DNA of 18,382 nucleotides, taken from positions 1-18,382 of the forward strand of contig RCSS01000248.1 of the NCBI GenBank assembly GCA_004000155.1, written 5' to 3'. The notes under the pieces were generated by a model. That model was not told the DNA's origin. It ran no database searches and saw only the letters and a list, made by a program, of their open reading frames with translations. The DNA is from Tubulinosema ratisbonensis (Eukaryota; Microsporidia; Tubulinosematidae). The position numbers were made by a program, and so were the translations under genes. Positions 1,922 to 18,289 of the stretch are shown piece after piece; the first letter of the stretch is position 1; every line of letters starts with the position of its first letter.

Positions 1922-1935
1922 CTCAGAATTTTAAT
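1922..1935. repeat. target-site duplication, left copy
   Basis: The 14-bp sequence ctcagaattttaat here is repeated exactly at 1995-2008. The two copies bracket the minus-strand retroposon fragment, as expected for target-primed insertion. The last T could equally belong to the poly-T run. Confidence 0.75.
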
Positions 1936-1994
1936 TTTTTTTTTGTTGCCTAGGGATGGGAAATCCATACGAAGATCTTTTCGCTATAACTTCT
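1936..1994 (-). mobile_element. 5'-truncated retroposon copy (3' end only)
   Basis: Read on the minus strand, positions 1994 to 1948 match 14123-14169 at 44 of 47 bases with no gaps. The match ends in the same CCTAGGC. It is followed by an A-rich tail (the T run at 1936-1944 plus GTT). Perfect 14-bp direct repeats flank it. A shared 3' end, a tail and a 5' truncation are hallmarks of LINE-type retroposition. This is a second, inverted copy of the family represented at 13958-14175. Confidence 0.8.
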
Positions 1995-2008
1995 CTCAGA
2001 ATTTTAAT
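1995..2008. repeat. target-site duplication, right copy
   Basis: Exact second copy of the 14-bp sequence at 1922-1935. It sits immediately next to the 5' truncation point of the minus-strand retroposon fragment. Confidence 0.75.
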
Positions 2009-11972: not shown

Positions 11973-12866
11973 ATGAACTTTACACCTGATGAGCTAGAAG
12001 TAATATTTTTGACTTCTACGAACAAGGAACTTTTACAGTTTCTTATGGATAGAAAGTTCATTAAAAATGAATTTTTCTGCCCGAAATGTCATCATGCCGC
12101 AAAGAATGTCAAATATTTGCGAAGTATTGATGAATGTGCTTGGAGATGCATGCAAAGTGCATGTCCAAGTTACAAAAAATACTATTCTATACGAGCAGGT
12201 TCTTTTTTTGAACCATTTAGCTTAAAAATGTCCTCCATACTGAGAATTCTTCTTAAGTATGCATGCAGACAGCCGATGCACAGCATTAAAATTTCATTGG
12301 ATGTTTCGGCTAGCACCATTGAAAAAGTAATAAACAGGCTAATTGAAAAAATACCTGAAACTGACTTTTCCAATAATAAGTTTGGCGGGCCTGACTCTGT
12401 GGTACAAATCGATGAGACAATTCTTAATTATAAGTGCAAAAGCCACAGAGGAAGGTCTTCTACTAACAGAACAGATTCAATCTGTATTGTAGAGGTAAAA
12501 AGTAGCATTACTAGGTGTTTTGCCAAAGTTATACCTGATAAAAAATCAAGAACCTTAGTTCCAATTATTTGCTCACAAGTAGCTAATAATTCTATCATTT
12601 GGACAGATGAGCATAAAAGTTATGCTAAATTAGAAGATTTTGAATTTTACCATGGTACCGTATGCCACAAATATGAATTTATGTGTAGTGCAACAGGTAT
12701 CAACACGCAAGCAGTAGAATCATTTAATAATGAATTAAAATTAGAGATAAAGCGCCGTAAAGGAATCAAAACGGAAAAAAGAGAAAAGTTTTTAAAAGAA
12801 TTTTGTTTTTTATTTAATAACAAAAGAAATTTATTACAAAAAATATTGGAGTTAATTAAAATTTAA
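11973..12866 (+). CDS. Merlin/IS1016-type (IS1595 group, ISXO2-like) DDE transposase
   Basis: Transposase expected to cut and paste a class II element. The frame is intact at 297 aa, close to full length for the family. An N-terminal zinc ribbon uses C36-x2-C39 and C59-x4-C64 and is followed by the typical R-x-GSFF motif (about residue 78). A helical segment leads to the DDE core: D147 in QIDETIL, D212 in WTDEHKSY and E249 in NTQAVESFNNELK, spacing D-64-D-36-E. A basic tail follows. The ATG context is ttttacctaaATG. The copy lies between a secreted-type gene and the Csm1-like gene. I found no terminal inverted repeats or 8-bp duplication, so it may be an old copy with eroded ends or a captured gene. 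Codon use is less AT-biased than in most of the neighbourhood. Confidence 0.88.
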   Translation: MNFTPDELEVIFLTSTNKELLQFLMDRKFIKNEFFCPKCHHAAKNVKYLRSIDECAWRCMQSACPSYKKYYSIRAGSFFEPFSLKMSSILRILLKYACRQPMHSIKISLDVSASTIEKVINRLIEKIPETDFSNNKFGGPDSVVQIDETILNYKCKSHRGRSSTNRTDSICIVEVKSSITRCFAKVIPDKKSRTLVPIICSQVANNSIIWTDEHKSYAKLEDFEFYHGTVCHKYEFMCSATGINTQAVESFNNELKLEIKRRKGIKTEKREKFLKEFCFLFNNKRNLLQKILELIKI

Positions 12867-13787: not shown

Positions 13788-13849
13788 ATTTGTCATTTTG
13801 ATTAAATGCCAGTTAATAAAAAAACTGTCATTTAATCAAAGTGACAAAA
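13788..13849. repeat. 27-bp inverted repeat / long stem-loop
   Basis: The arm 13788-13814 and the reverse complement of 13823-13849 agree at 24 of 27 bases, and one of the three differences is a G-U type pair. The loop is 8 bases. This is far longer than the other palindromes in the window. It begins about 265 bp after the stop codon of the Csm1-like gene. It could be a minute foldback element or the stem of a small structured RNA. I cannot choose between them. Confidence 0.7.
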
Positions 13850-13940: not shown

Positions 13941-13957
13941 AATTAATTATACTGAAT
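13941..13957. repeat. target-site duplication, left copy
   Basis: The 17-bp sequence aattaattatactgaat is repeated exactly at 14176-14192 and brackets the retroposon. Exact matching suggests a fairly recent insertion. Confidence 0.85.
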
Positions 13958-14175
13958 CCTGTAACCAAAACCCGCAAGGTAAGATAGAATTAGGCAGTCA
14001 ATAGAGTGTACGGGGGTGGGTTTTAGCGGGTGAAAGGCTCGCAGTATCTTGAGCTATACTTAAGTATGGAGAAACATATTTTACCCTATGTTTCCGTCGA
14101 CTAGGTATAAATATTCTTGTAAAGAAGGTATAGCGAAAATATCTTCGTATGGATTTTCCATCCCTAGGCAAAAAA
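13958..14175 (+). mobile_element. SINE-like or 5'-truncated LINE retroposon, 218 bp
   Basis: A 218-bp insert starts at cctgtaacc and ends in CCTAGGC plus an A tail. It lies between perfect 17-bp direct repeats and is clearly GC-richer than its surroundings. The last 47 bp before the tail recur in inverted orientation at 1948-1994. It has no long ORF. It contains structured segments: ACCCGC (13970-13975) can pair with GCGGGT about 50 bases later, ATACTTAAGTAT is a perfect palindrome (14056-14067), and 14068-14078 pairs with 14087-14095 with a two-base bulge. A 3' terminal hairpin (ATGGA-ttt-TCCAT, 14149-14161) precedes the end. This fits a non-autonomous element or the 3' end of a LINE. I could not confirm a tRNA, 5S or 7SL ancestry or clear A and B boxes. 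Confidence 0.85.
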
Positions 14176-14192
14176 AATTAATTATACTGAAT
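14176..14192. repeat. target-site duplication, right copy
   Basis: Exact second copy of the 17-bp sequence at 13941-13957, directly after the A tail of the retroposon. The first two A bases are shared between tail and duplication. Confidence 0.85.
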
Positions 14193-15725: not shown

Positions 15726-16196
15726 ATGCATTTGTTGAGACTGATTAACAGTGTACTCTCTCCATCCTTATGGAAGAAAATGGATTATAATTTGATTGCA
15801 GAAGAAGCAAAGAGTCTGAGTGATAAAATGACCGGAGCCCACATAGAAAAAATATTTCTAGTAAACGTGCTAACAGCACATACCTTGGAACAATCCCAGT
15901 CTAATAATGACTTTTTCAAAAACTCTAAAGCTGCATCGGTAGATCAACAAGAGGTACTTAGAAATGCAGCAAAAATACTCTTAAAAGACAAACCCAACGA
16001 AACATTAAAAACAGATCTTTTGAATTATTTTTACGGTTTTTGGGACTCAGCAACTAACAGGAATAAAAAGTTAACAGATGAAGTAAAAAAGATACTTTCC
16101 AAACTTATTATTCTGTCTGAAATGATCATAAGCGGGAAGATGGAGAATACACGGTCAGGAATAGTGAAATTATCCCCAAAATTTCTGGAATCGTAG
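15726..16196 (+). CDS. 5' part of frameshifted long coiled-coil gene
   Basis: 156 codons, starting just after a CCCC signal. The first 16 residues (MHLLRLINSVLSPSLW) are moderately hydrophobic and could be a weak signal or anchor sequence. The rest is predicted helical and polar. Coding quality ends near 16135: beyond it this frame gives a short tail and a stop at 16194-16196, while another frame continues without a break into the large ORF downstream. I therefore read this as the N-terminal part of one protein of about 854 residues. Family not recognised. Confidence 0.6.
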   Translation: MHLLRLINSVLSPSLWKKMDYNLIAEEAKSLSDKMTGAHIEKIFLVNVLTAHTLEQSQSNNDFFKNSKAASVDQQEVLRNAAKILLKDKPNETLKTDLLNYFYGFWDSATNRNKKLTDEVKKILSKLIILSEMIISGKMENTRSGIVKLSPKFLES

Positions 16197-18289
16197 ACAA
16201 AGATCTTAGTGTAACTGAGTGTCTAGATGAATTATATAAAGCTTTGTTTGATGACAGCAAGATGCCAAAATTAGAAAATGAATTACCAGAAAACGAGAAC
16301 CCACCTAAAAGAAGCGATTTAAAAGAAAAAGGAACAAAAGCTGAAGATCTTTCTGCGGTTTTTAAAGAATTTTTTGATGAAATTTTTCAAATTACAGGCA
16401 AAAAAAACATAACCAAGGAAACTATTTTGGAATTGGTAGACACACTTGATTTCTTTAAAGATTTGCTCGACAAAGATGATCTGTGCCAAGATATTGTTGA
16501 GCCTGCAAAAATAGTTTATAGAAATTTATATGACAAAATTCAATCAACAAAATACGATGAACTTAAATCCATTTCTATTAGCGCAGATCGAAAGATTCCT
16601 GATATTAGAAATAAAATTAAACAAAAATCTGAAGAATTGAAAACTTCATCAAAGGAAAATGACGCGGCTTTAAGAGAAAAGTTAGATTCGCTTTTGGAAG
16701 ATTTTCTAAAGTTAACCTTTGAGAAAGAAATAGCTATTGAAGAACAGAAGTTATTGAAATCGTTTTTAGTTGATTTATTAAAGGTTTCCGAGAAACAAAT
16801 GTCTGAATGTCTTGACTTGCCGGTGGAAAATGTTAAAAAGCTTATACCAGGAGAATTTTTGAATGATACATTTAAAGCAAACGAAGAGAAAGCCCAAATG
16901 ATAAAAGCCGAATTAAATAATTTATCTAAGAAACTTCAACAATTTGGTGAAATTAAATCACAAGAAACAAAGAAAACAGAGGAACTTAACAATCAGTTGC
17001 AACAACATAAAGAAAACTTTGAAAAAAATTTAAATGCACAAAAAGTAAAATTAGAAGATGAAATTAATAAAATGAAAGAAATATTTAAAACTCAAGGAAA
17101 AGAATTTCTACCTGAATTACCAAATAAAATTCAAAATTTAATGCAGCAAACAAACGAAAATGTTATAAAACTCGTTGATGATCTTCAATCCACAATCACA
17201 CAGAACAAACTACCAGAAAATCTTGCAATCGGTTTAGAACCTCTAGATTTGACAACAAAGGCTAAATTTGATCTTAATAATTTATTTTCTGAATTTTCAA
17301 CTTTAAAAAATCATTTAGTTTATTCGGAATTAACTCCTGAACTCAAAACATCATTTGATAAGTTGAATATCTTTTTTGATAAATTGGTAGATTCAAATAA
17401 AACAGAAAATGTAAAATTACAGTTAAAAGATGAACAAGGAAATGTTATTTACCCCAAAGTAAATATTATTAATGAGCCTGAAATTAAGCAGCCTGAAAAC
17501 AAGAATCAACCAAGTGGCGAAACTGGCCAAAAAACTTCTTTGTTTTCTTTCTTTAGAAGTTTTGCAAATTGGTTTAGAAAAGATGGAGATGAAACTCAAC
17601 AAAAACCAAAAATTCAAGCTAGTAGTGAAGAAACACCTCAACCCCCAGATAATGAAAAACCCCCTAAAACTTCAGATAGTAGTGAAGAAACACTTCAACC
17701 CTCAGATAGTGAAGAATCCTCTGAAACTCCAACTGGAGGTAGTGGAGTACCCCCTAAAACTTCAGATAGTAGTGAAGAAACCCCTCAACCCCCAGATAGT
17801 GAAGAATCCTCTGAAACTCCCATTAGAGATGGTAAAAAATACAAAATAAAACTACCACCCAATTTAACATACGACATTAAAGACTTAACTCTTCTTCACA
17901 ACAATCAAACAAATCACATTTCATTAGAATCATCCTCTCTACCCCAAGAAATACTATCTAACTTACTAACCAAATACACTCATAACACAATACAAGATTA
18001 CATAACATTCTTACAACTAAACTTACAATCCTTGTTGGATGGTAAAGAAACAAAAAACAAAGAAATATTTTATGATGGTCCTTTAAATATAAAATTAATA
18101 GCAGTGATAAAACATTTTTTATTAATTGAATTAACTAAATTTACTTTACTAATCAAATGTATAAAATGTAATAAAATTAATAAATGTAAAAGTAACGAAG
18201 AATATTTGTGTACTTGTAAAGAAATAATACAAATATTCTGTGTTTTTTATCTGGTAAATGTGGTAAAATGGTTTGTTAAATGGTTCTAA
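16121..18289 (+). CDS. 3' part of frameshifted long coiled-coil, Ser/Pro-repeat protein
   Basis: The frame is open from 16121 to TAA at 18287-18289. The first 40 or so codons carry no ATG, so this is a continuation of the preceding ORF after a one-base deletion, not a separate gene. A candidate site is the GGG at 16134-16136. After that point it encodes charged helical sequence, then a strong coiled coil (about 16874-17108). A linker and a Ser/Glu/Pro tandem repeat follow (17621-17822). A C-terminal domain has a Cys cluster (C-x2-C-x5-C, then C-x-C) and a hydrophobic end. No known domain is recognised. The layout suggests a scaffold or surface-associated protein, but no function can be assigned. 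Confidence 0.68.
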   Translation, partial: NDHKREDGEYTVRNSEIIPKISGIVDKDLSVTECLDELYKALFDDSKMPKLENELPENENPPKRSDLKEKGTKAEDLSAVFKEFFDEIFQITGKKNITKETILELVDTLDFFKDLLDKDDLCQDIVEPAKIVYRNLYDKIQSTKYDELKSISISADRKIPDIRNKIKQKSEELKTSSKENDAALREKLDSLLEDFLKLTFEKEIAIEEQKLLKSFLVDLLKVSEKQMSECLDLPVENVKKLIPGEFLNDTFKANEEKAQMIKAELNNLSKKLQQFGEIKSQETKKTEELNNQLQQHKENFEKNLNAQKVKLEDEINKMKEIFKTQGKEFLPELPNKIQNLMQQTNENVIKLVDDLQSTITQNKLPENLAIGLEPLDLTTKAKFDLNNLFSEFSTLKNHLVYSELTPELKTSFDKLNIFFDKLVDSNKTENVKLQLKDEQGNVIYPKVNIINEPEIKQPENKNQPSGETGQKTSLFSFFRSFANWFRKDGDETQQKPKIQASSEETPQPPDNEKPPKTSDSSEETLQPSDSEESSETPTGGSGVPPKTSDSSEETPQPPDSEESSETPIRDGKKYKIKLPPNLTYDIKDLTLLHNNQTNHISLESSSLPQEILSNLLTKYTHNTIQDYITFLQLNLQSLLDGKETKNKEIFYDGPLNIKLIAVIKHFLLIELTKFTLLIKCIKCNKINKCKSNEEYLCTCKEIIQIFCVFYLVNVVKWFVKWF
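17621..17822 (+). repeat. coding tandem repeat, Ser/Glu/Pro-rich
   Basis: Three in-frame units begin at 17621, 17678 and 17768 with SSEET(P/L)QP and continue (P/S)D(N/S)E. Units 1 and 2 are separated by PPKTSD, and the same PPKTSD precedes unit 3. Spacing is 57 and then 90 bp, the second unit carrying an extra Gly-rich segment. Near-identity at DNA level suggests recent expansion. Confidence 0.8.

Follow-up and report, generated by a model that had tools for sequence, protein, structure and literature searches.

The 218-nucleotide (nt) insert at positions 13958-14175 of the Tubulinosema ratisbonensis DNA analyzed here is very probably a copy of a non-autonomous, SINE-like family of non-LTR retroposons with an RNA of about 218 nt, inserted by LINE-mobilized target priming. 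Copies of this family are dispersed, have a common 3' end with an A tail, are in part truncated at the 5' end and carry copy-specific target-site duplications, and for one of them a corresponding empty site was found. We call the family SINE-like rather than a canonical SINE because neither tRNA-type boxes nor an Rfam relative was found in it. T. ratisbonensis parasitizes Drosophila; microsporidia are reduced relatives of fungi, and their genomes serve as models of genome reduction.

The insertion in the window

The window, the whole stretch of 18,382 nt that was analyzed, is the entire contig C110. The features of the two copies described in it are as follows:

13941..13957, + strand: left target-site duplication, 17 bp, an exact match to 14176-14192
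13958..14175, + strand: full-length copy of the retroposon in its short form (218 nt; K2P distance to the family consensus 0.058)
14123..14175, + strand: 3' tail module, corresponding to positions 166-218 of the element (the 3' flank of the C19 LINE matches profile positions 161-197)
14170..14177, + strand: A run (tail), its last two A overlapping the right duplication
14176..14192, + strand: right target-site duplication, 17 bp, identical to 13941-13957
1936..1994, - strand: second copy of the same element, 5'-truncated to the tail module, 59 nt including the A/T run
1922..1935, - strand: 14-bp target-site duplication of the second copy on the element's 3' side, identical to 1995-2008
1995..2008, - strand: 14-bp target-site duplication of the second copy on the element's 5' side, identical to 1922-1935

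The 17-mer AATTAATTATACTGAAT is present identically on both sides of the 218-nt insert and abuts it; its unambiguous part is 15 bp, since the right repeat opens with two A that are common to the A tail. Shuffling the mononucleotides of the local 860 nt 2000 times never produced an exact 17-mer repeat at a spacing of 150-400 nt. The first-pass annotation had placed the insert, with an A run at its end, between exact 17-bp direct repeats, and its coordinates and the identity of the repeats were confirmed. Its description of the insert as relatively GC-rich and non-coding also stands: the element has 39.9% GC, about twice the 19.7% and 22% of its 300-nt flanks, and none of the window's open reading frames of at least 80 aa overlaps 13958-14175. 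The truncated second copy has its own exact 14-bp duplication.

Several other features of the window are recorded here in their own right. A hairpin at 13789-13848, just upstream of the insertion, has 26-nt arms that are 92% complementary and an 8-nt loop, and the genome search found no other place for it. The window also contains an RPA1-type gene; among the candidates scored, its best hit is a protein of Anncaliia algerae, with 57% identity along its length. The 297-aa frame at 11973-12866 contains a DDE_Tnp_IS1595 domain (PF12762, E 7.7e-18) and, by the name of the domain, is presumably a Merlin-type transposase. A 156-aa frame (15726-16196) precedes a 681-aa frame (16244-18289) with a repeated 90-nt unit near its 3' end that is rich in S, E, P, and T codons.

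A dispersed family with a common 3' end

The draft genome comprises 7,555,974 nt in 952 contigs with 23.2% GC, according to its announcement (PMC6675976). Our genome searches covered 4,116,903 bases in 236 contigs, and about 45% of the draft lies outside these contigs. The 28-mer at the 3' end of the element had 107 matches with up to three mismatches in the 236 contigs, whereas the reversed control had 0; within the same assembly, the sequence is not single copy. A DNA search with the element returned at least 41 matches (best 40 of 257 candidates scored). A profile of the element found eight copies in 73 kb chosen on other grounds (the reverse-transcriptase loci without C19, plus the window), or six in 55 kb when the window is excluded; the first figure extrapolates to about 450 copies in 4.1 Mb, a rough estimate, since reverse-transcriptase loci may hold more repeats than average. 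A scan of IMG/VR with the tail pattern gave 0 matches.

In 227 kb of sampled DNA, mostly chosen for containing the element, the profile gave 140 hits, some of them pieces of one copy, and 128 of the 140 reach the 3' end. The 5' starts of these 128 fall at positions 1-3 (64 hits), 4-20 (9), 21-100 (19), 101-150 (17), and beyond 150 (19); the full-length share is biased, because the sampled places came from the list of 3' 28-mer matches (the first places of the 107) and from a best-score list favoring full-length copies. The common 3' end and varied 5' ends that were anticipated for a retroposon are therefore both present, with 64 of the 128 starting after position 3. The insert had been proposed to belong to either a SINE-like or a short-LINE family. 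The former fits better and the latter does not account for the starts at positions 1-3: because half of the sampled hits have one common 5' end, we prefer the SINE-like reading.

The family consensus runs from CCTGTAACC to CCCTAGGCAACAA, followed by A. The 64 full copies lie at K2P distances of 0.028-0.695 from it, and the closest pair of full copies is at 0.049. The family is long-lived and, because this closest pair differs by 4.9%, without sign of very recent movement. Among 60 aligned rows, 13 belong to an old and 32 to a young subfamily type, and the remaining rows are unassigned.

The surroundings of some copies are themselves repetitive. On C11, C20, C158, and C222, some full or partial copies stand a few nucleotides from a partial copy that is diverged and equally oriented, and some weak hits have flanks in common, at 70-93% identity. 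Both observations may reflect tandem insertion into older copies, or else a second family related to this one. Copies also lie 30-260 nt from decayed LTR-type reverse-transcriptase stretches (L057, L046, and L040, on C83, C106, and C154), where they are perhaps nested insertions. Pieces of repeat reach contig ends, at the end of C36 and the start of C82 (L147, L159). Repeats may break the T. ratisbonensis assembly, so that copies would be undercounted.

Target-site duplications and an empty site

Of the 126 copies whose flanks were long enough, 33 reach a duplication score of at least 10 next to the element, against 0.8% of permuted flank pairs, and 22 do so at a score of 12, against 0.0% (rounded). 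In the permuted control, 5' and 3' flanks were paired randomly among copies in eight permutations. The duplications are 10-18 bp long and copy-specific, as the proposal of different flanking duplications around different copies had foreseen. The other 93 of the 126 copies are without a duplication at score 10; many of these are old and some are young, such as the copy on C60 (K2P 0.028). Where the duplication starts, T/A is weakly preferred, with T at -1 in 20 of 33 and A at 0 in 22 of 33; the A tail accounts for part of this preference.

The joined flanks of the 126 copies were also searched against the sampled DNA. By position, most of the 14 spanning hits are the locus itself or element-element matches. 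A paralogous empty site was found for the copy on C235, whose flanks match C104 with 84% identity over 201 nt, the element being absent and the target single; this empty/filled pair belongs to the C235 copy, not to that of the window. The spanning hit between C112 and C11, at 68-69%, was too weak to use. Taken with the dispersed copies, their common 3' end and the copy-specific duplications, the C235/C104 pair supports target-primed retroposition, which had been read from the window copy by itself.

In the mechanism that we propose, the element RNA of about 218 nt with its A tail would be bound by a LINE reverse transcriptase, and the LINE endonuclease would nick AT-rich DNA. The A tail at the nick would prime the first-strand cDNA, completed insertion would leave duplications of about 10-18 bp, and incomplete copying would give rise to 5'-truncated copies. 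We infer the RNA intermediate, the LINE as helper, recognition via a shared tail, and the type of promoter.

RNA fold, promoter, and head

The claim that the insert is structured was borne out for the family and not for the window copy. The family consensus folds better than 200 of 200 shuffles (z -4.02), and the consensus sequences of the old and young subfamilies gave z -4.0 and -3.4, whereas the window copy alone folds no better than its shuffles (z -0.66). RNAalifold kept only four pairs on 60 of the 64 full copies (the three most diverged and one without a single covering locus were left out). Between the old and young consensus sequences, 3 of the 64 pairs of the young fold are changed; because all three are broken, covariation does not support the fold. 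The element body contains GCTATACCT, a perfect 9-nt complement to AGGTATAGC of the LINE-homologous tail, and the two are paired in the predicted fold. The consensus has two internal TTTT runs.

A search for A and B boxes with a score trained on 20 of the 30 tRNA genes found in this genome, which themselves score 23.0-35.6, gave a best score of 2.2 in the element (125 of 200 mononucleotide shuffles were as high) and 9.6 in the long copy on C52 (23 of 200 shuffles as high). ARAGORN found no tRNA in the window. The ancestry of the element, which folding and Rfam were expected to reveal, did not emerge: Rfam gave only matches far below gathering scores for the window (E up to 5) and for the long copy L077 (E up to 10). 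The element is short, non-coding, and dispersed, with variable-length duplications, 5' truncation, and a common 3' end with an A-rich tail, as SINEs are, and a tRNA, 5S, or 7SL head with internal pol III boxes, as in a canonical SINE, was not found.

These data bear on two further readings, both of which we regard as unlikely. According to the first, the family would be a microsporidian retroposon lineage whose head is a new structured RNA, whose tail may be offered to the reverse transcriptase as part of a long helix, and whose two or more length forms arose by a change of head while the tail was kept. Stringent LINE/SINE pairs present the tail as a free 3' hairpin, whereas here, on this model, it would lie in a long helix. 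According to the second, which we consider somewhat less probable, the copies would be retro-pseudogenes of a cellular structured non-coding RNA taken by a LINE and not self-propagating, the insertion mechanism being the same. The consensus fold is consistent with such an origin, but no Rfam match rises above chance level, and the subfamilies, together with the longer form described below, suggest evolving source copies. All the alternatives weighed here overlap in part with the SINE-like reading, and their probabilities do not add up to a whole.

A longer form of the element

Some copies are extended at the 5' side by about 160 nt, from GGCTCTTGGGAGG to AATCAATACTT, ahead of the 218 nt, which gives a form of about 378 nt. 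This part has 11 matches including the query, nine of which continue as far as the 3' end of the element. When 10 of the 11 matches are aligned, six starts fall within two nucleotides near GGCTCT, a seventh lies 7-8 nt later, and the others are truncated. The long form is probably older, because the matches are only 70-84% identical to the C52 copy. Two long forms, on C2 and C36, have still more upstream sequence in common; forms longer than about 378 nt are ambiguous, because C82 has the further upstream piece where the element is absent. On C201, the reverse-transcriptase match of a LINE relic is followed, at a distance of about 0.9 kb and on the same strand, by one long form.

A candidate helper LINE

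We detected 27 RVT_1 matches in the 236 contigs and inspected 20 of these loci by eye. Those other than C19 look LTR-type or are too decayed to call, and we take C19 to be the only one that is clearly LINE-like by its motifs. C19:9276-12128 (L049, L156) is a frame-broken APE-type LINE. Its endonuclease stretch matches PF14529 with an E value of 5.8e-5, which is below Pfam's cut-off, and its reverse transcriptase is split across shifted frames, the larger piece matching RVT_1 with an E value of 4.3e-19; the closest solved structure is human L1 ORF2p (E 7.2e-11). This LINE is single-copy in the 236 contigs searched. Protein searches of these contigs with two C19 pieces found two further reverse-transcriptase relics, one on C157 with 30% identity and the other on C201 with 47% over 49 residues, and no relatives of the endonuclease. 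In the protein database, a piece of the C19 LINE has at least seven weak relatives, 27-32% identical, four of them from Rhizopus, among the best 7995 candidates by shared words. No target duplication was found around the C19 LINE, where only AT-rich 9-10-mers recur. The LINE start reads CCCTGTATAG ahead of its ATG, with the letters CCCTGTA just before the first ATG; these resemble the CCTGTA at the 5' start of the element (CCTGTAACC). A signal common to both starts would rest on six letters, and the likeness may be due to chance.

About 620 nt past the end of its frame, the 3' flank of the C19 LINE contains 37 nt that match positions 161-197 of the element profile (E 1e-5), and the match ends before the element's last ~20 nt. 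The number of same-strand element copies expected by chance in the 700 nt behind this LINE is 0.038, and the match comes from one LINE copy, so that it may instead be an independent fragment of the element. The match is suggestive, though not proof, of a tail shared between LINE and SINE. The first-pass annotation had called for a LINE with the same last ~50 bp; tail homology was indeed found, over about 37 nt that exclude the very last nucleotides and in a single LINE copy. The likely helper, and the best candidate, is a LINE of the C19 lineage, now frame-broken.

The longer form and the C201 relic also raise the question of whether the 218-nt copies come from the 3' end (3' UTR) of some larger element, a LINE or another long retroposon, cut at a preferred point. 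The nine long-form matches that reach the element's 3' end, the upstream sequence common to C2 and C36, and the position of one long form behind the C201 relic are compatible with this explanation, but a search of the C19 LINE stretch did not recover the body of the 218-nt element, and C19, the LINE with readable frames, has only ~37 nt in common with the element. Moreover, the 64 starts at positions 1-3, albeit in a sample drawn partly from a list favoring full-length copies, are unlike random truncation, and the further upstream piece occurs on C82 without the element. We therefore consider this explanation improbable, slightly more so than that of retro-pseudogenes. A DNA transposon (MITE) or a segmental duplication can practically be dismissed, although the element is a short dispersed repeat and Merlin and Mariner elements are reported in the T. 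ratisbonensis announcement (PMC6675976), because the duplications vary in length from 10 to 18 bp; in addition, many copies combine 5' truncation and an A tail, the consensus ends CCTGTAACC and GGCAACAA are not inverted repeats by eye, and shared flanks occur in some pairs only, several of them via neighboring copies or the long form.

Comparison with known retroposons and implications

The element works like a SINE: its novelty is in the taxon and the head, and its mechanism is that of known SINE-like retroposons. Known SINEs mostly have heads of the tRNA, 5S, or 7SL type, none of which was found here. The EhSINE1/EhLINE1 pair of Entamoeba histolytica is similar in that short, mostly intergenic elements of a parasite have target duplications and are mobilized by a LINE, most copies of which are inactive; however, EhSINEs are described as 0.5-0.7 kb long with internal repeats, whereas the T. 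ratisbonensis forms have 218 and ~378 nt, and the endonuclease named for EhLINE is restriction-enzyme-like, whereas the candidate LINE is APE-type (PMC3716655). LINE-derived SINE tails of the stringent type are described for an eel pair and for SINEX-3_CR and L1-1_CR of Chlamydomonas, which have a common 3' end of ~80 nt; as in those pairs, a 3' tail may be common to SINE and LINE, here ~37 nt within a module of ~53 nt (PMC3747384). The T. ratisbonensis LINE partner, unlike theirs, is inferred from one copy. Among fungal SINEs, AfuSINE2 and AfuSINE3 of Aspergillus fumigatus are comparable in size (140-493 bp), and AfuSINE2 has duplications of 4-14 bp, but these elements are reported to have tRNA or 5S heads and a low copy number, against the ~450 copies extrapolated here (PMC5063351).

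Such elements had been called little described in microsporidia. Among the titles listed from open-licence papers, none concerns a SINE in microsporidia; there may be a report elsewhere. The word SINE is absent from the main text of PMC7313128, PMC12558613, and PMC4202319. Table 1 of PMC4202319 sorts microsporidian transposon families into LINE, LTR, and DNA elements, with no column for SINEs, and the list of elements in the T. ratisbonensis announcement is limited to LTR, Mariner, and Merlin (PMC6675976). The size of the family described here suggests that many short insertions are unreported. Filled and empty sites could be used as strain markers, and the pair of LINE and tail would allow tests of how a helper is recognized in such a reduced fungal relative.
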